Positions 4,280-13,196 of a DNA stretch of 64,000 bases are shown here, piece after piece. Location of the stretch: contig NZ_JADNRL010000024.1 of NCBI RefSeq assembly GCF_015595025.1, forward strand, positions 229,499-293,498. Reading direction: 5' to 3'. The first letter of the stretch is position 1. Each line of letters starts with the position of its first letter. The notes under the pieces were generated by a model. It had not been told where the DNA came from. It did not search any database and saw nothing but the letters and a program-made list of their open reading frames with translations. Both the position numbers and the translations under genes were made by a program. Origin of the DNA: Halomonas sp. KAO (lineage in GTDB: Bacteria > Pseudomonadota > Gammaproteobacteria > Pseudomonadales > Halomonadaceae).

Positions 4280-4936
4280 TCAGCCGTGCTGTCGTGCCAG
4301 GGCCCAGCGACGGGCGAGCAGGACCAGCTCGATGACTGCGATCAGCAGCACGGCATAGCCAAACAGCTCCACGACCTCCTCGGCGGCGCTCTTGAAGTCG
4401 CGAACATAGCTCTCCTGCAGGATCGCCTGCCAGAAGTCGCCACGTCCGTAGAGCCGCGAGAAGACATAGGTGGTCAGGAAGCCCGCCGCGAAGAGTCCGA
4501 AGGAGAAGCTGTTGGCATAGGCGGCGAACTCGGCCAGGAAGCGCTGTCGCTTGCGGATGACTACGAACAGGATCGGCAGCACGGTGAGGCCGACCAGCAG
4601 CTGCCAGGCACCATCGAAGAGGTAGGTGTCGAGCAGGGCGTCCTGCTCGCGGATCAGCGAGGCAAACAGAAACCCGAACATCAGCAGGCTGATGTAGGGC
4701 AGGGTGCGGATCACCAGGTGGCTATAGAGCAGCAGGCCGGCAGCGGCGGCCAGCAGGGCGGACTGGGCCAGCTCGGTGAAGCCACGTTCGGAGAAGCGTG
4801 CATCGGGAAGATAGAGGGACTCATAGAAGACCCCCTGGGCGATACCCGCCACCAGCAGGATATAGAGTGTCGCACGCAGGCAGGTGGCGCGGAAGCTGAT
4901 GGGCCAGGAGGGGGGAGGCAGAGACTTATGTGGCAT
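4280..4936 (-). CDS. Hypothetical multi-pass membrane protein
   Basis: This 218-residue protein is not recognised as a member of a named family. It has about five hydrophobic segments, at roughly residues 20-40, 60-80, 85-105, 115-135 and 150-170, plus one near the C-terminus. The N-terminus is short and proline-rich. It is convergent with rpoD and divergent from the ABC operon at 5181, so it is probably a single-gene unit. No catalytic motif is visible and no function is proposed. Confidence 0.7.
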   Translation of the reverse strand: MPHKSLPPPSWPISFRATCLRATLYILLVAGIAQGVFYESLYLPDARFSERGFTELAQSALLAAAAGLLLYSHLVIRTLPYISLLMFGFLFASLIREQDALLDTYLFDGAWQLLVGLTVLPILFVVIRKRQRFLAEFAAYANSFSFGLFAAGFLTTYVFSRLYGRGDFWQAILQESYVRDFKSAAEEVVELFGYAVLLIAVIELVLLARRWALARQHG

Positions 4937-5077
4937 GGCGGAATTCGTGTCTGAGGGTAACGTTGAAGGACATCTTACCCGGTCCGCCGAGGGGGAGCTA
5001 ACTTCGCCGGCGACTTGTTTGCAAACTATTGAATTTCAGGGGCCTACACCATTAGTCGCGTTTTTATGCCGAGCCTA

Positions 5078-5118
5078 TTGCCGAGCGGTAACACATCCTC
5101 TAGCTTACGTTAACGTAA
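5078..5118 (+). promoter_or_regulatory. Promoter and LiuR-like operator of the ABC operon
   Basis: A -35 TTGCCG (5078-5083), a 17-bp spacer and a -10 TAGCTT (5101-5106) are overlapped by a perfect 14-bp palindrome, ttacgttaacgtaa (5105-5118). This palindrome resembles the motif I recall for LiuR, a MerR-family repressor of branched-chain amino acid catabolism. It would block the promoter of the livG-like gene starting at 5181. Confidence 0.55.
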
Positions 5119-5180
5119 AGCCTGGCAACAACGATAACAGTACCACGGCGGGTCGCGTCGCGACCCCAAGAGGAAGGCAC

Positions 5181-5954
5181 ATGACCCAGGAGTTCATACT
5201 GGAAACTCGCGGGTTGACCAAGGAGTTTCGCGGCTTCACCGCCGTGGACGACGTCAACCTCAAGGTCCAGGAAGGGCACATCCACGCCCTGATCGGCCCC
5301 AACGGGGCCGGCAAGACCACCGTCTTCAATCTGCTCACCAAGTTTCTGCCGCCGACCCGCGGCGAGATTCTCTATCGCGGCAAGCCCATCACGCGGATGA
5401 AGGCCAACGAGATCGCCCGTCTCGGGCTGGTGCGCTCCTTCCAGATCTCCGCGGTGTTCGGCCATATGACCGCCCTGGAGAACGTGCGGGTGGCCCTTCA
5501 GCGCAAGCTGGGCACCTCCTTTCACTTCTGGAAATCCGAGCGCAGCCTCGATCATCTCAACGACCGTGCCATGGAGCTGCTCGATGAGGTCGGCCTGGCC
5601 GAGTATGCCGATGTGCTGACCGTAGAGATGCCCTATGGCCGCAAGCGCGCCCTGGAGGTCGCCACCACCCTGGCCCTCGAGCCGACGATGATGCTGCTCG
5701 ACGAGCCGACCCAAGGCATGGGGGCCGAGGACGTCGACCGCATCGTCGAGCTGATTCGGCGGGTCTCGGCGGGGCGCACCGTGCTGATGGTGGAGCATAA
5801 CCTTAGCGTGGTCAGCCGCCTGTGCGACCGCATCACCGTGCTGGCCCGTGGCGCCGTGCTGGCCGAGGGCGACTATCAGGAGGTGTCGCGCAATCCCCAG
5901 GTGCGCGAGGCCTACATGGGCAGCGAGGCGGCGGCAGAGGAGGCCAGCGCATGA
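5181..5954 (+). CDS. livG: Branched-chain amino acid-type ABC transporter, ATPase LivG
   Basis: This 257-residue cytoplasmic ATPase is the first gene of a five-gene high-affinity uptake operon. The Walker A GPNGAGKTT stands near residues 38-46, the Walker B MMLLDEPTQGMG near 170-182, and the signature region in this subgroup is the divergent VEMPYGRKRALEVA. The start at 5181 follows an AGGAAG ribosome binding site; a longer upstream reading frame runs through the promoter and is rejected. Its stop overlaps the next gene by 4 nt (ATGA). The palindrome upstream suggests control by a LiuR-type repressor. Substrate could be a branched-chain amino acid, amide or urea. Confidence 0.85.
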   Translation: MTQEFILETRGLTKEFRGFTAVDDVNLKVQEGHIHALIGPNGAGKTTVFNLLTKFLPPTRGEILYRGKPITRMKANEIARLGLVRSFQISAVFGHMTALENVRVALQRKLGTSFHFWKSERSLDHLNDRAMELLDEVGLAEYADVLTVEMPYGRKRALEVATTLALEPTMMLLDEPTQGMGAEDVDRIVELIRRVSAGRTVLMVEHNLSVVSRLCDRITVLARGAVLAEGDYQEVSRNPQVREAYMGSEAAAEEASA

Positions 5955-6709
5955 GCCAGTCAGCCGAAGCGGTACAGGATCCGGTGCACCAGTACCAGGA
6001 CCTGGAGGGCGCCGAGATGCTGCGGGTCAGTGATCTGCACGCCTTCTACGGCGAGTCGCACATCCTCCACGGCGTCGACTTCGATGTGAAGCGCGGTGAG
6101 CTGGTGACCCTGCTGGGGCGCAATGGCGCCGGTCGCAGCACCACCCTCAAGGCGATCATGAACATGGTGGGTCGACGCACCGGCTCGATCATGATCAATG
6201 GCAACGAGGCGCTGGGCATGAAGTCCCATCATATCCCGCGGCTGGGGATCGGTTACTGCCCCGAGGAGCGCGGGATCTTCGCAAGCCTCGACGTCGAGGA
6301 GAACCTGCTGCTGCCACCGACGGTGCGTTCGGGAGGCATGTCCATCGACGAGATCTACACGATGTTCCCCAACCTCTATGAGCGTCGGCGTAGCCAGGGC
6401 ACCCGGCTCTCCGGGGGTGAGCAGCAGATGCTGGCCATGGCGCGAATCCTGCGCACCGGGGCGCGACTGCTGCTGCTCGACGAGATCACCGAGGGCCTGG
6501 CACCGGTCATCGTCCAGGCGCTCGGCGAGGTGCTGATCAAGCTCAAGGAGCGCGGCATGACCATCGTGCTGGTGGAGCAGAACTTCCGCTTCGCCGCGCC
6601 CCTGGCCGACCGTCACTTCGTGATGGAGCACGGCCGTATCATCGAGGAGATCACCGCCGCCGAGCTGCCCTCGCGTCGCGATCACCTCAACAGCCTGCTG
6701 GGCGTGTGA
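5951..6709 (+). CDS. livF: Branched-chain amino acid-type ABC transporter, ATPase LivF with altered Walker A
   Basis: This is the second 252-residue ATPase of the operon, translationally coupled to the first by a 4-nt overlap. The Walker A reads GRNGAGRST: the lysine that normally contacts the nucleotide phosphates is arginine (R62). The LSGGEQQM signature and Walker B RLLLLDEIT are intact. I recall that some LivF-like subunits carry this substitution, so it may mark a subfamily rather than a defect. An N-terminal extension of about 22 residues precedes the usual LRV start of the fold. Other four operon members look intact. Confidence 0.85.
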   Translation: MSQSAEAVQDPVHQYQDLEGAEMLRVSDLHAFYGESHILHGVDFDVKRGELVTLLGRNGAGRSTTLKAIMNMVGRRTGSIMINGNEALGMKSHHIPRLGIGYCPEERGIFASLDVEENLLLPPTVRSGGMSIDEIYTMFPNLYERRRSQGTRLSGGEQQMLAMARILRTGARLLLLDEITEGLAPVIVQALGEVLIKLKERGMTIVLVEQNFRFAAPLADRHFVMEHGRIIEEITAAELPSRRDHLNSLLGV

Positions 6710-6793: not shown

Positions 6794-8014
6794 ATGACCT
6801 TCAATCGCAAGATTCTCGCCTCCAGCGTAGCCCTAGCCGCCGCGACCCTGATGGCGACCGGTGCCCAGGCCAGCATGAGCGACGATGCCGTGCGCATCGG
6901 CTATCTCGCCGACATGTCCGGCACCTATCGTGATCTCGCCGGCCCGGGTGGCCTCGAGGCCCTGAAGATGGCCGTCGAGGACTTCGGCGGCGAGGTCAAT
7001 GGCGTGCCCATCGAGGTGTTCAGTGCCGACGACCGCAACAGCGCCGATGTCGGCGCCAACACGGTGCGCGAGTGGTTCGACACGAAGAATGTCGACCTGG
7101 TGGCGGGGCTGGTGGCCTCCTCGGTTTCCATTGCCGCCACCAAGGTGATCGAGGAGAACGACGGCCTGGGTATCGTCTCCGGTTCCGCCGCGTCCAGCAT
7201 TACCAACGAGCACTGCACCCCCAACCATATTCACTGGGTCTATGACACCTACCCGCTCGCCAACGGGACCGCCAAGGCGGTGGTGGAGCAGGGTGGCGAC
7301 AGTTGGTTCATGCTCACCGCCGACTACGCCTTCGGTCATGCCCTGGAGGACGACGTGACCAGGGTGGTGGAGGAGAATGGCGGTGAGATCGTCGGCGGGG
7401 TGCGCCATCCCTTCCCCACCAGCGACTTCTCCTCCTATATCCTCCAGGCCCAGGGCTCCGGTGCCAAGATCGTCGGTCTGGCCAATGCCGGCGCCGACAC
7501 CGTCAATGCCATCACCACCGCCAGCCAGTTCGGCCTGACCCAGTCCGGCCAGCAGCTCGCCGGTCTGCTGATCTTCCTCAACGACGTCCACTCCATGGGC
7601 CTCGAGGCGACCCAGAACCTGCTGCTCACCACCGGCTGGTACTGGGACATGGATGAACAGGCGCGCGAGTGGGCCGATCGCTACTTCGAGCGGACCGGCA
7701 AGCGCCCGACCATGGTCCAGGCCGGCATCTACTCCAGCACCGCGCACTACCTGGAGACCGTGGCCGAGGCGGGTACCGACAATCCCGAGCAGATCCGGGC
7801 GGCCATGGCCGAGCGCCCCGTGGAGGACTTCTTCTCTCGCAACGGTTACATCCGTGAGGATGGGCGCATGGTCCACGACATGTACCTGGCGCAGGTGAAG
7901 ACCCCCGCGGAGTCCGAGAACGAGTGGGATGTCTACGAGGTCCTCTCCACGATTCCCGCCGAAGAGGCCTTCCGTCCGCTTTCCGAAAGCCAGTGTGATC
8001 TGGTCAACAACTGA
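6794..8014 (+). CDS. ABC transporter periplasmic substrate-binding protein (type I, Leu/Ile/Val or amide type)
   Basis: This 406-residue protein begins with a clear Sec signal peptide ending at ATGAQA near residue 25. It then shows the type I periplasmic fold of the LivJ/FmdD/UrtA group (VRIGYLADMSGTYRDLAGPGGLEALKMA). It should capture the solute in the periplasm and deliver it to LivH/LivM. It is longer than classical LivJ (about 367), which is common in the amide/urea branch, so leucine is not certain as substrate. It is the third gene of the operon, between the ATPases and the permeases. Confidence 0.85.
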   Translation: MTFNRKILASSVALAAATLMATGAQASMSDDAVRIGYLADMSGTYRDLAGPGGLEALKMAVEDFGGEVNGVPIEVFSADDRNSADVGANTVREWFDTKNVDLVAGLVASSVSIAATKVIEENDGLGIVSGSAASSITNEHCTPNHIHWVYDTYPLANGTAKAVVEQGGDSWFMLTADYAFGHALEDDVTRVVEENGGEIVGGVRHPFPTSDFSSYILQAQGSGAKIVGLANAGADTVNAITTASQFGLTQSGQQLAGLLIFLNDVHSMGLEATQNLLLTTGWYWDMDEQAREWADRYFERTGKRPTMVQAGIYSSTAHYLETVAEAGTDNPEQIRAAMAERPVEDFFSRNGYIREDGRMVHDMYLAQVKTPAESENEWDVYEVLSTIPAEEAFRPLSESQCDLVNN

Positions 8015-8071: not shown

Positions 8072-8959
8072 ATGACAATGATTTTCGGTGTGCCGTTGAT
8101 GGTATTCATGGGCCAGCTGATGCTGGGCCTGATCAACGGCGCCTTCTATGCCCTGCTCAGCCTCGGGCTGGCGGTGATCTTCGGCCTGCTGAAGATCGTC
8201 AACTTCGCCCACGGTGCCATGTACATGCTCGGCGCCTTCACGGCGCTGCTGGGGCTGCAGTATCTGGGGCTCAACTACTGGGCGGCCCTGCTGGTGGTGC
8301 CACTGGTGGTGGGCGGACTGGGCATGTTGATCGAGCGCTTCATCCTGCGCCGCATCGCTCACCTCGACCACCTCTACGGGCTGCTGCTGACCTTCGGCCT
8401 GGCGCTGATCTTCGAGGGGTCACTGATCAACTTCTTCGGGGTCTCGGGGTCCAGCTATCCCACCCCCGCCGCCCTGGAGGGCGGTGTCAATCTGGGCTTC
8501 ATGTTCCTGCCCATCTATCGTGGCTGGGTGCTGGTTGCCGCTCTTGCGGTCTGCCTGGCGACCTGGTTCATCATCGAGCGGACTCGCCTGGGGGCCTATC
8601 TGCGCGCCGGTACCGAGAATCCGGCCCTGATGCAGGCCTTCGGCGTCAACGTCCCCCAGCTGATCACCCTGACCTACGGCTTCGGCGTGGCACTCGCCGC
8701 CTTTGCCGGGGTGCTGGCCGCACCGCTCTATCCGGTCTCGCCCACCATGGGCTCGAGCCTGCTGATCGTGGTGTTTGCCGTGGTGGTGATCGGTGGCATG
8801 GGCTCGATCATCGGTGCCGTCATCACCGGCCTGGCCATGGGGCTGATCGAGGGCCTGACCAAGGTCTACTATCCCGAGGCCGCCAACACCGTGATCTTCG
8901 TGGTGATGGTGGTGGTCCTTATGCTGCGTCCCGCGGGACTCTTCGGCAAGGAGGCTTGA
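8072..8959 (+). CDS. livH: Branched-chain amino acid-type ABC transporter permease LivH
   Basis: This 295-residue inner-membrane permease has about eight hydrophobic segments and the family pattern NGAFYALLSLGLAVIFGLLKIVNFAHG near the N-terminus, plus a GGMGSIIGAVITG block in the C-terminal half that contacts the ATPases. A gaggggagg ribosome binding site precedes the ATG. It is followed 4 nt later by the partner permease gene, with which it forms the translocation channel. Confidence 0.88.
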   Translation: MTMIFGVPLMVFMGQLMLGLINGAFYALLSLGLAVIFGLLKIVNFAHGAMYMLGAFTALLGLQYLGLNYWAALLVVPLVVGGLGMLIERFILRRIAHLDHLYGLLLTFGLALIFEGSLINFFGVSGSSYPTPAALEGGVNLGFMFLPIYRGWVLVAALAVCLATWFIIERTRLGAYLRAGTENPALMQAFGVNVPQLITLTYGFGVALAAFAGVLAAPLYPVSPTMGSSLLIVVFAVVVIGGMGSIIGAVITGLAMGLIEGLTKVYYPEAANTVIFVVMVVVLMLRPAGLFGKEA

Positions 8960-8963
8960 CACC

Positions 8964-9947
8964 ATGTCGGCAACCCAGACCCTGACGCCTGCCATGAAAC
9001 TTCGCCGCAAGGCCAAGGTGCGTCGCAACTTCCTGTACCTGGCGCTGGTCGCCATCGCCCTGGTGGCCCCCTTCGTGGCCTACCCGGTCTTCCTGATGAA
9101 GGTGCTCTGTTTCGCGCTGTTCGCCTGCGCCTTCAACCTGCTGCTCGGCTATGCCGGCCTGCTCTCCTTCGGGCACGCCGCCTTCCTGGCCACCGGTGGC
9201 TACTTTACCGGCATCATGCTGGCCAGCTACCCGGGGCTGACGCCGGAGCTTGGCATCCTGATCGGTACCTTCGCCGCCGTGGTGCTGGGCACGCTGTTCG
9301 GCGCCCTGGCGATCCGCCGGCAGGGCATCTACTTCGCCATGGTGACGCTGGCGCTGGCGCAGATGATGTTCTTCTTCTTCGTCCAGGCGCCCTTCACCGG
9401 CGGCGAGGATGGCCTGCACGGAGTGCCGCGTGGCGAGCTGTTCGGGGTGATCAGCCTCGAGAGCAACCTCAACATGTACTACTTCGTGCTGGCGGTGTTC
9501 CTGATCGGCTTCGCGATCATCCAGCGTGCCGTGCACTCGCCTTATGGTCAGGTGCTCCGGGCGATCCGCGAGAACGAGCCCCGTGCCGTGTCACTCGGTT
9601 ACAACGTCGATGCCTACAAGCTGGTGGCCTTCGTGCTCTCCGCCGGTCTGGCGGGCCTGGCGGGATCGACCAAGACCGTGGTCTTCCAGCTCGCCTCGCT
9701 GACCGATGCCCACTGGCACATGTCCGGCGAGGTGATCCTGATGACCCTGCTGGGCGGTGTGGGCACGCTGTTTGGCCCCCTGGTGGGTGCCGGCGTGGTG
9801 GTCAGCCTGCAGACCCAGCTGGCGCAGTCGCCGCTCGGCAACTGGGTCAGCGTGATCCTCGGCGCCATCTTCGTGATCTGTGTGCTGAGCTTCCGCAGCG
9901 GCATCGTCGGCGAGATCCAGAAGATGGTGCGCAAGAACTTCAAGTGA
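8964..9947 (+). CDS. livM: Branched-chain amino acid-type ABC transporter permease LivM
   Basis: This 327-residue permease is the last gene of the operon. It has about nine membrane segments, the conserved LLGYAGLLSFGHAAFLATGGY block near residues 55-75 and the IRENEPRAVSLGYNV cytoplasmic loop that couples to the ATPase. The first 20 residues are basic and cytoplasmic. A compact terminator follows at 9985. Confidence 0.88.
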   Translation: MSATQTLTPAMKLRRKAKVRRNFLYLALVAIALVAPFVAYPVFLMKVLCFALFACAFNLLLGYAGLLSFGHAAFLATGGYFTGIMLASYPGLTPELGILIGTFAAVVLGTLFGALAIRRQGIYFAMVTLALAQMMFFFFVQAPFTGGEDGLHGVPRGELFGVISLESNLNMYYFVLAVFLIGFAIIQRAVHSPYGQVLRAIRENEPRAVSLGYNVDAYKLVAFVLSAGLAGLAGSTKTVVFQLASLTDAHWHMSGEVILMTLLGGVGTLFGPLVGAGVVVSLQTQLAQSPLGNWVSVILGAIFVICVLSFRSGIVGEIQKMVRKNFK

Positions 9948-9984: not shown

Positions 9985-10006
9985 GGCGCCTCGCGGGGCG
10001 CCTTTT
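9985..10006. terminator. Terminator between livM and the LysR gene
   Basis: A ggcgcc stem with a 6-nt loop is followed by TTTT on the plus strand. It lies directly at the end of the convergent LysR gene, so it probably serves livM. Confidence 0.65.
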
Positions 10007-10896
10007 CAATGCGCGCTGGACAGGCGTTGCGGCAGGTAGGCCACCAGGTGGTCGAGAAAGCGCTGCAGCTTGGGCGAGCGCTGGCGGTGGCGGGGGAAGA
10101 CCGCCCAGACCGCCGTGTCGTCGTGGCGGTAGGCGTCGAGCACCGAGATCAGGGCGCCGCTCGCCAGATGCTCCTCCACGTAGTAGTCGGGCAGCTGGGC
10201 CAGCCCCAGTCCCTTAAGGGCGGCATCGAGCAGCGCAGGCCCCGAGTTGGCTCGCCACGAGCCACTGACGCGTACCTCGCGACGCACGCCATCCACCACG
10301 AAGCGCCACTGGTCACGACTGCCGACCAGGCAGCGGTGGCGGGAGAGCTCGGCCAGGGCATGGGGCTGGGAGATATGCTCGAAGTAGGTCGGGGCGCCGA
10401 CCACATACTCGCGGCGTTCGCACAGTCGCCTGGCCACCAGGCTCGAGTCCTCCAGGCGGCCCATGCGGATCGCCACATCGAACCCCTCGTCGATGATATC
10501 CACCTGGCGGTTGGTGAAGTGCATGCGCACCTCCAGCTGGGGGTGTTCGAGCAGGAAGTCGTTGACCAGCGGGGCGAGAAAGCGCTCGCCGAAGGTGGTG
10601 GCGGAGGTCAGGGAGAGGCGCCCCTGGGGGCGGTCCTGGAGGTCATCGATCGCCGCCTCGGCCTCGCGAAAGCCGTCGAACAGATGGCGGCAGTGGCGGT
10701 AGTAGAGCGCCCCGGCGTCGGTCAGGTTGATCTGGCGCGTGGTGCGATAGAGCAGGGCGGTGCCCAGTTGTTGCTCGAGCTGGCTGACCAGCCGACTGAC
10801 GTGGGAGTTGGAGACCGACAGCTCCCGCGCGGCCGCCGCAAAGGTGCCCAGCCGCACCACCTCGACGAAGGCTTCGATACGATCCCAGCGCTGCAT
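10006..10896 (-). CDS. LysR-family regulator divergent from formaldehyde-oxidation genes
   Basis: This 296-residue regulator has the N-terminal winged helix-turn-helix (AFVEVVRLGTFAAAARELSVSNSHVSRLVSQLEQQLG) and a C-terminal effector domain of the CrgA-like subgroup (RLSLTSATTFGERFLAP). The start at 10896 was chosen because it gives the standard short N-terminus before the helix-turn-helix. It is transcribed divergently from adhC/frmA at 11022, so it probably controls glutathione-dependent formaldehyde oxidation and its own gene from the shared 125-nt gap. Confidence 0.88.
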   Translation of the reverse strand: MQRWDRIEAFVEVVRLGTFAAAARELSVSNSHVSRLVSQLEQQLGTALLYRTTRQINLTDAGALYYRHCRHLFDGFREAEAAIDDLQDRPQGRLSLTSATTFGERFLAPLVNDFLLEHPQLEVRMHFTNRQVDIIDEGFDVAIRMGRLEDSSLVARRLCERREYVVGAPTYFEHISQPHALAELSRHRCLVGSRDQWRFVVDGVRREVRVSGSWRANSGPALLDAALKGLGLAQLPDYYVEEHLASGALISVLDAYRHDDTAVWAVFPRHRQRSPKLQRFLDHLVAYLPQRLSSAH

Positions 10897-10918
10897 GGAC
10901 TCTCCTGAAGAATGCAAG

Positions 10919-10940
10919 ATTGTTGCTGTGTGGCAATAAT
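10919..10940. promoter_or_regulatory. Candidate LysR-type operator in the lysR-adhC gap
   Basis: An interrupted inverted repeat, attgttgc-N6-gcaataat, has arms that match in all but one pair and the T-N11-A pattern of LysR boxes. It is central in the divergent promoter region. A direct repeat of ggtttata follows at about 10960-10980. Confidence 0.45.
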
Positions 10941-10985
10941 GTAATGCCTTTGGTGCGGTTTATACCGGTTCGGTTTATAGCCTAG

Positions 10986-12285
<1,300 letters not shown>

Positions 12286-12341
12286 GCGCCACCCTGTCGA
12301 TCGGCGGCCGGAAGTTCCCGGCCGACAAGGAGAGTGAATTC

Positions 12342-13196
12342 ATGACCATGACCGAAAACCTCGAGCTGGTATCGGCCAACAAGAGTTTCGGCGGCTGGCA
12401 CAAGCGCTACCGCCATCGCTCCCGGGCGCTGGATTGCGAGATGATCTTCGCCATCTACCTGCCGCCCCAGGCCGAGACCGAGCGGGTGCCGCTGCTGTGG
12501 TGGCTCTCCGGACTGACCTGCAACGACGAGAACTTCATGCAGAAGGCCGGCGCGCACCGGGCTGCCGCCGAGCTCGGCATCGCGATCATCTGTCCGGACA
12601 CCAGCCCGCGTGGCACCGACCTGCCCGGTGAGCATGACAGCTATGACTTCGGCTCCGGCGCCGGCTTCTATGTCAACGCCACCCAGGAGCCCTGGAAGCG
12701 TCACTACCGCATGTATGACTATGTGACCGAAGAGCTGCCCTCCGTGGTGCGCCAGCACTTCCCGGTCAACGGTCGCGAATCGATCAGCGGCCACTCCATG
12801 GGCGGTCACGGCGCACTGGTGGCGGCGCTGCGTCGGCCGGGACACTATCGCTCGGTGTCGGCCTTCGCGCCGGTCGTCAACCCCTCCGAGTGCCCCTGGG
12901 GGCAGAAGGCCTTCTCGAGCTATCTCGGCGATGACCGCGGCAAGTGGACCCAGTACGACGCCTGTGAGCTGGTAGCCCGTGGCGCCTCCAGCCAGCCGCT
13001 GTTCATCGACCAGGGCGAGGCGGATGACTTCCTCGAGGAGCAGCTCAAGCCCGAGCGTCTCGAGGCGGTGTGTGCCGAGCACGACCATCCGCTGACCCTG
13101 CGCCGACAGCCGGGATACGATCACAGCTACTACTTCATCGCCTCCTTTATCGAGGATCACCTGCGCTACCACGCCGAGCATCTGCACAAGAAGTGA
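12342..13196 (+). CDS. fghA: S-formylglutathione hydrolase
   Basis: This 284-residue alpha/beta hydrolase (esterase D family, also called FrmB) splits S-formylglutathione into formate and glutathione, the second step of formaldehyde detoxification in the cytoplasm. The nucleophile elbow GHSMGGHGA is near residue 149 and the C-terminal catalytic histidine is in GYDHSYYF. The N-terminal WLSGLTCNDENF oxyanion segment is also typical. A good ribosome binding site (aaggagag) precedes the ATG. It follows frmA across the tandem-hairpin array. Confidence 0.95.
   Translation: MTMTENLELVSANKSFGGWHKRYRHRSRALDCEMIFAIYLPPQAETERVPLLWWLSGLTCNDENFMQKAGAHRAAAELGIAIICPDTSPRGTDLPGEHDSYDFGSGAGFYVNATQEPWKRHYRMYDYVTEELPSVVRQHFPVNGRESISGHSMGGHGALVAALRRPGHYRSVSAFAPVVNPSECPWGQKAFSSYLGDDRGKWTQYDACELVARGASSQPLFIDQGEADDFLEEQLKPERLEAVCAEHDHPLTLRRQPGYDHSYYFIASFIEDHLRYHAEHLHKK

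Follow-up and report, generated by a model that had tools for sequence, protein, structure and literature searches.

The LIV-type ABC transporter operon in the 64-kb stretch of DNA analysed here (the window) is preceded by a palindrome that we judge, at roughly nine chances in ten, to be a conserved operator of the MerR-family regulator LiuR, its recognition by LiuR being deduced from sequence comparison. Since the palindrome is very probably a LiuR site, the transporter belongs to the branched-chain pathway, and it probably imports one of the fuels of that breakdown pathway.

A rare palindrome upstream of livG

The transporter operon of the window consists of five genes in the order livGF-SBP-livHM (Table 1). 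An earlier note on this DNA had described a perfect palindrome before a LIV-type transporter, overlapping the -10 of its promoter and resembling what we take to be the consensus of LiuR, a MerR-family repressor. The palindrome, TTACGTTAACGTAA, is indeed present upstream of livG as a perfect 14-bp palindrome, and its end lies 62 bp from the livG ATG (5181). It is the only match to its own sequence at two or fewer mismatches in the window, where shuffled sequence gave an expectation of 0.02. The 3,725,077-base genome contained six sites at two or fewer mismatches (three exact and three with one mismatch), compared with one match for the reversed-reading control of the same sequence. A looser pattern, TNACGTNNACGTNA, gave seven matches genome-wide, against one for its control. 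The seventh of these loose matches, TGACGTAAACGTCA (G000:C24:373468-373481; L160), is found about 70 bp upstream of an ORF that reads as porin-like; it is possibly a further LiuR target, or possibly a chance match, and was excluded from the count of LiuR sites.

The results for the promoter were mixed. A consensus scan of positions 4930-5260 showed no sigma-70-like promoter. When the window was aligned with the promoters of 60 loci from relatives, CTAG preceded the site in 34 of the 61 sequences, and a TTG stood in the -35 register, 17 bp before TAGYTT, in 31 of these 34, the window included. The boxes proposed in Table 1 have a spacer of 17 bp, and with this promoter the operator would extend from the end of the -10 into the start region. 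The claimed overlap is therefore likely as regards the two bases that the proposed TAGCTT shares with the palindrome, while the consensus scan finds no promoter there.

Table 1. Features of the operator, promoter and transporter operon, in window positions.
Feature	Position	Strand	Basis
LiuR-type operator TTACGTTAACGTAA (putative)	5105..5118	.	rarity, conservation, co-occurrence with LiuR
Proposed -35 box TTGCCG	5078..5083	+	TTG in register in 31/34 promoters of this type
Proposed -10 box TAGCTT	5101..5106	+	alignment, inference; last TT common to operator
ABC ATPase, LivG/UrtD type	5181..5954	+	Pfam ABC_tran, BCA_ABC_TP_C; best NCBIfam UrtD, LivG, both below cut-off
ABC ATPase, LivF/UrtE type	5951..6709	+	best NCBIfam UrtE, LivF, both below cut-off
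Substrate-binding protein, Peripla_BP_6	6794..8014	+	nearest solved chains 3i09, 3n0w; far below LivJ cut-off
Permease, LivH/UrtB type	8072..8959	+	below cut-offs
Permease, LivM/UrtC type	8964..9947	+	below cut-offs

After the operon, positions 10006-13196 hold LysR-type, alcohol/formaldehyde dehydrogenase-type and esterase-type genes (frmA/frmB-like, by reading). Elsewhere in the genome, a paralog of the binding protein (G000:C10:228548-229312; L193) is encoded as one ORF, 60 % identical over residues 13-222 and without a middle segment; it looks like an internal deletion.

Three of the other genomic sites lie at liuR and probable branched-chain catabolic operons

The five remaining sites were found upstream of liuR and the valine-catabolic genes, the liu operon, the bkd genes, an AhpD-like gene and a TRAP transporter. 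On contig C1 the site is located between a MerR-family gene and divergent genes for an acyl-CoA dehydrogenase, an ECH_2 hydrolase (HIBCH type) and a 3-hydroxyisobutyrate dehydrogenase, the last scoring over its model cut-off. On C24 it precedes a liu operon composed of acyl-CoA dehydrogenase, carboxyltransferase, enoyl-CoA hydratase (by reading), biotin carboxylase and HMG-CoA lyase, which again scored over the cut-off. On C23 it stands before the E1 and E2 genes of a 2-oxo acid dehydrogenase, which we read as bkd. The names isovaleryl- and isobutyryl-CoA dehydrogenase, bkd and liuB/C/D were assigned here from gene order and general family, with no specific model. The site on C30 precedes the AhpD-like gene (TIGR01926, over cut-off), which is followed by a DSBA-type gene, and the site on C45 belongs to the TRAP transporter (G000:C45:25423-28700; L019).

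The MerR-family gene on C1 (C1:76716-77162; L015:8117-8566) encodes a LiuR-type protein of 149 aa with the Pfam domains MerR_1 and MerR-DNA-bind. It is divergent from the valine-catabolic genes, and 69 bp separate it from the site. No LiuR model was among its NCBIfam matches; its relatives at 53 and 57 % identity adjoin liuA in loci L038 and L050. Behind liuR lies a gene for an acyl-CoA ligase that shares 64 % identity with the ligase of the Pseudomonas cluster; the end of this gene is uncertain because one TAG falls inside the aligned stretch of that match.

The site follows LiuR across genomes

We searched 121 genomes of the family for the pattern TKACGTTAACGTMA and for relatives of LiuR, which were found in 86 and 89 genomes, respectively. 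The site was present in 86/89 LiuR-positive and 0/32 LiuR-negative genomes (counts and p-values ignore shared ancestry), and because it tracks LiuR in this way the palindrome is very probably a LiuR operator. The three LiuR-positive genomes without an exact site were G005, G013 and G087. In total, 208 sites were counted across the 121 genomes compared with nine control hits, five of which fell in LiuR-less genomes. One genome with the binding protein, G086 (77 % complete), gave no LiuR match.

With eight MerR_1 matches in the genome, the palindrome could also be used by another DNA-binding protein, for instance by a MerR_1 protein other than LiuR. We consider this highly improbable, since one site is 69 bp away from liuR itself, with others in front of liu and bkd, the presence of the site follows that of LiuR, and none of the six sites has any of the other seven MerR_1 genes within 40 kb.

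The site is conserved before livG in relatives

In the named genomes, the best 80 of 589 loci were taken, of which 64 were from Halomonadaceae, and 62 of these had upstream sequence (all but L031 and L099); the loci were counted by eye from the printed list. The site, at one mismatch or fewer, was found before livG in 60 of the 62 testable Halomonadaceae loci among the best 80 of 589, and 48 of the 60 were exact. All 60 lie 1.66-2.09 kb upstream of the binding-protein gene, i.e. before livG, and none of these loci showed an additional match at one mismatch or fewer. The nearest named relative of the window's binding protein is that of H. icarae (99 %), and in the H. elongata operon (L036) the site reads TTACGTTGACGTAA. 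The information content, calculated from the window and 59 loci, was 1.92 bits per column within the site, compared with 0.59 in the 60 bases upstream and 0.18 in the 90 bases downstream. A chance palindrome was ruled out by this conservation at orthologous loci.

The two Halomonadaceae loci without the site were L073 and L100. Halomonas sp. Y3 carries the operon twice, with the site at L071 and without it at L073, the second copy. The genes flanking L073 read like a 3-hydroxyacyl-CoA dehydrogenase, acyl-CoA dehydrogenases and a thiolase, and this copy is perhaps a differently regulated acid transporter.

The remaining 16 loci among the best 80 of 589 were from Pseudomonas, Stutzerimonas and one unassigned gammaproteobacterium. 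All 16 of these Pseudomonadaceae-type loci carried a site with one to three mismatches, mostly three, 1.63-1.74 kb before the binding-protein gene. Among 20 hand-picked, more diverged homologs of the family, the site was in the same place in 10. The ten without it comprised five second or third copies (one truncated at a contig end) and five homologs of 50-53 % identity.

The intergenic region is common to livG and a divergent gene, which is a membrane-protein gene in the window (4280-4936, minus strand) and liuR in loci of the Vreelandella type, so we asked which of the two the site serves. Divergent liuR was found in 27 of the 60 site-bearing loci, with the liuR match beginning 53-149 bp from the site and livG lying 224-402 bp away; because liuR is much closer than livG, the site may belong to liuR in these loci. 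In the other 33 loci, and in the window, the locus holds no LiuR match, and livG starts 62-240 bp after the end of the site. These 33 loci are the group that carries the claim of a livG operator. Except for L050, every liuR-type locus (26 of 27, ranging over L033-L067 and L084) had a second, weaker match with two to three mismatches, often reading TTACGTTCAGGTAA, 164-167 bp closer to livG. The genes on the far side differ among the 11 loci that were read. With the site kept before livG in loci without liuR, it is barely credible that it serves the divergent gene and that the transporter is a mere neighbour.

In some loci the operon itself adjoins branched-chain genes. In L038 and L050 it is divergent from liuR-liuA-liuB-liuC, with isobutyryl-CoA dehydrogenase-, HIBCH- and HIBADH-type genes downstream. 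In L082 and L095, both from Pseudomonadaceae, its neighbours are liuA/liuB and the AhpD-like gene; L095 has the acyl-CoA ligase and liuR as well.

The checks proposed in the earlier note were a search of the genome for liuR and for the motif, and the conservation of the motif in orthologous promoters. The first gave a LiuR-type MerR gene next to a site, the second gave sites at liuR, liu and bkd, and the third showed the motif kept in nearly all testable loci, including 33 where liuR is absent from the locus. The reading of the palindrome as a LiuR site is accordingly well supported by the sites at these operons, by conservation and by co-occurrence, from which we infer LiuR binding. The proposed link of the uptake operon to branched-chain degradation also held, with three of the six sites at core branched-chain operons (liuR/valine, liu and bkd).

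The AhpD-like gene and the TRAP transporter as candidate partners

The AhpD-like gene with the LiuR-type site (G000:C30:224292-224937; L018) has relatives in 36 other genomes, 20 of which were examined, and 10 of these 20 showed a ACGTNNACGT-type match with two to three mismatches. The orthologous transporter was present in 34 of the 37 genomes with the AhpD-like gene, compared with 12 of the 84 without it (121 genomes, shared ancestry ignored); the 46 genomes with an 'orthologous' transporter were hand-picked at about 64 % identity or more. When all 55 genomes with the binding protein were used, the counts were 35/37 and 20/84. Within the genus, they were 8/8 with the gene and 0/5 without it.

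The TRAP operon has relatives in 29 other genomes, and 8 of the 20 examined showed a match at two or fewer mismatches. With the site this patchy, the TRAP transporter was rejected as a core member. The site of the TRAP transporter also occurs in some genomes of genus g11, as the variant TTACGTAAACGTAA, and is absent in most of the same-genus relatives examined.

Substrate of the transporter

We compared the operon with E. coli LIV-I/LS (livJ, livKHMGF). Both have two ATPases, two permeases and a type I binding protein. However, the window operon has the order GF-SBP-HM, and its binding protein scored 26.3 bits on the LivJ model, where the cut-off is 477. The LivJ ligand positions are presumably Thr102, Tyr150, Tyr202 and Glu226, of which we take Thr102 and Glu226 to be the amino-group residues. 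In a MAFFT alignment with E. coli LivJ and LivK, which is weak, these positions are occupied by Ala, Phe, Ala and Ser/Ala, respectively, so that by this alignment the window protein would lack the amino-group residues, while Ser79, which contacts the ligand carboxylate, is kept in the same weak alignment. The hhalign comparison with LivJ gave a probability of 26 and 23 % identity, with a gap at Glu226; strand positions in the predicted structure would place Leu259 there.

The predicted structure of the binding protein had a pLDDT of 80 and a pTM of 0.80, with residues 42-49 and 131-134 below pLDDT 50. Its best structural neighbours were 3n0w (Z 47.1, 2.3 Å over 372 residues, 36 % identity) and 3i09 (Z 45.7, 3.8 Å over 369 residues, 51 % identity). 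Next came proteins titled as amino-acid binders, 4maa (Z 42.0), 3n0x (38.5) and 7jfn (37.7), and later aromatic-acid binders (4evs, 36.7, and others), urea binders (34.5), and 2liv and 2lbp (about 29). Because both kinds of binder are among the neighbours, the fold comparison gives no preference for either acids or amino acids. The accessible text of PMC3354956 gives 3n0w as an apo structure with its natural ligand not known, and a literature search for the ligand of 3i09 found no paper naming it; no substrate can therefore be transferred from either. A binding protein of Anabaena variabilis with the same Type I fold (4obb/4nv3; Z about 31, only 17 % identity) offers a precedent, by analogy, for a choice between oxo acid and amino acid at one residue. 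By title, the ligand in 4obb is of the (3S)-3-methyl-2-oxopentanoate type and that in the N280D mutant, 4nv3, is valine; N280 would correspond to the Glu226 position of LivJ.

The low LivJ score and the aligned pocket residues give a weak hint of branched-chain oxo acids or short acids. We give an even chance to a branched-chain oxo acid or a short branched carboxylate as the likeliest cargo. A true LIV system that imports leucine, isoleucine and valine is the next candidate, although it seems unlikely to us. It would fit the LIV-type architecture, the LiuR regulon and the rank of the titled amino-acid binders 4maa, 3n0x and 7jfn ahead of the aromatic-acid binders, and, with no BrnQ found in this genome, there is room for an importer of amino acids. 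However, the LivJ score is 26 bits against 477, the residues at the four LivJ positions are Ala, Phe, Ala and a non-acidic one (weak alignment), and another protein of this genome, C3:9497, has Ser, Tyr, Tyr and Asp at these positions and 119 bits on the LivJ model (below the cut-off), and has no site.

The best NCBIfam names of the four ABC subunits are UrtD, UrtE, UrtB and UrtC, which would suit a Urt-type urea or amide transporter. This assignment is very improbable, since all five subunits score below the cut-offs (UrtD 213 of 304 bits, UrtA 48.5 of 492.8 bits) and the operator belongs to carbon catabolism. The expectation that the site would help to name the substrate was thus realised in part: uptake is tied to branched-chain catabolism, while the aligned pocket residues, in a weak alignment, speak against an amino acid.

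Discussion

LiuR is described in the accessible text of PMC3223726 as a MerR-family repressor of Ile/Leu/Val utilisation. The accessible part of PMC5343134 gives 103 (table) or 104 (text) LiuR regulons, and states that motifs were generally conserved across taxa for most of the regulators studied. In its MerR-family regulator and its liu/ivd/bkd targets, the regulon proposed here is like the gammaproteobacterial LiuR regulon as far as these accounts present it (RegPrecise; PMC3223726, PMC5343134). The Shewanella LiuR targets in the same accessible text are ldh, liu, ivd, bkd, gltBD, thrABC and aceBA, and a cascade leads to tyrR; no LIV-type ABC operon is named in that text.

Our literature searches found no report of a LiuR-regulated LIV-type transporter in Halomonas, of Halomonas LiuR, of Halomonas leucine catabolism with a MerR regulator, or of isovalerate/isobutyrate uptake by RB-TnSeq, and the motif sequence returned only an unrelated fly study. 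The RegPrecise tables and supplements lay outside the search and may list the operon. As far as the literature found tells, the LIV-type operon is a new target of the known LiuR regulon.

By binding over the -10 region as a dimer, LiuR would keep the livGF-SBP-livHM promoter blocked. With branched-chain catabolism under way, LiuR would release the DNA, the inducer perhaps being an acyl-CoA of the pathway. The transporter would then be made along with the liu, bkd and valine-catabolic enzymes, and its cargo would feed branched-chain catabolism. As a tentative model, somewhat short of an even bet, the LiuR-controlled transporter would import branched-chain oxo acids or short branched carboxylates (such as isovalerate, isobutyrate or 2-methylbutyrate) in place of amino acids, and would form a scavenging module for these acids with the liuR-linked acyl-CoA ligase and the AhpD-like redox protein.

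LIV-type transporters are commonly annotated by default as branched-chain amino acid importers. Here a conserved operator ties a transporter of this type to a defined catabolic regulon, and its pocket may depart from those of amino acid binders. Given the regulon and the pocket, the substrate could be sought with a small set of compounds, which would also point to a role for the related solved proteins 3n0w and 3i09.
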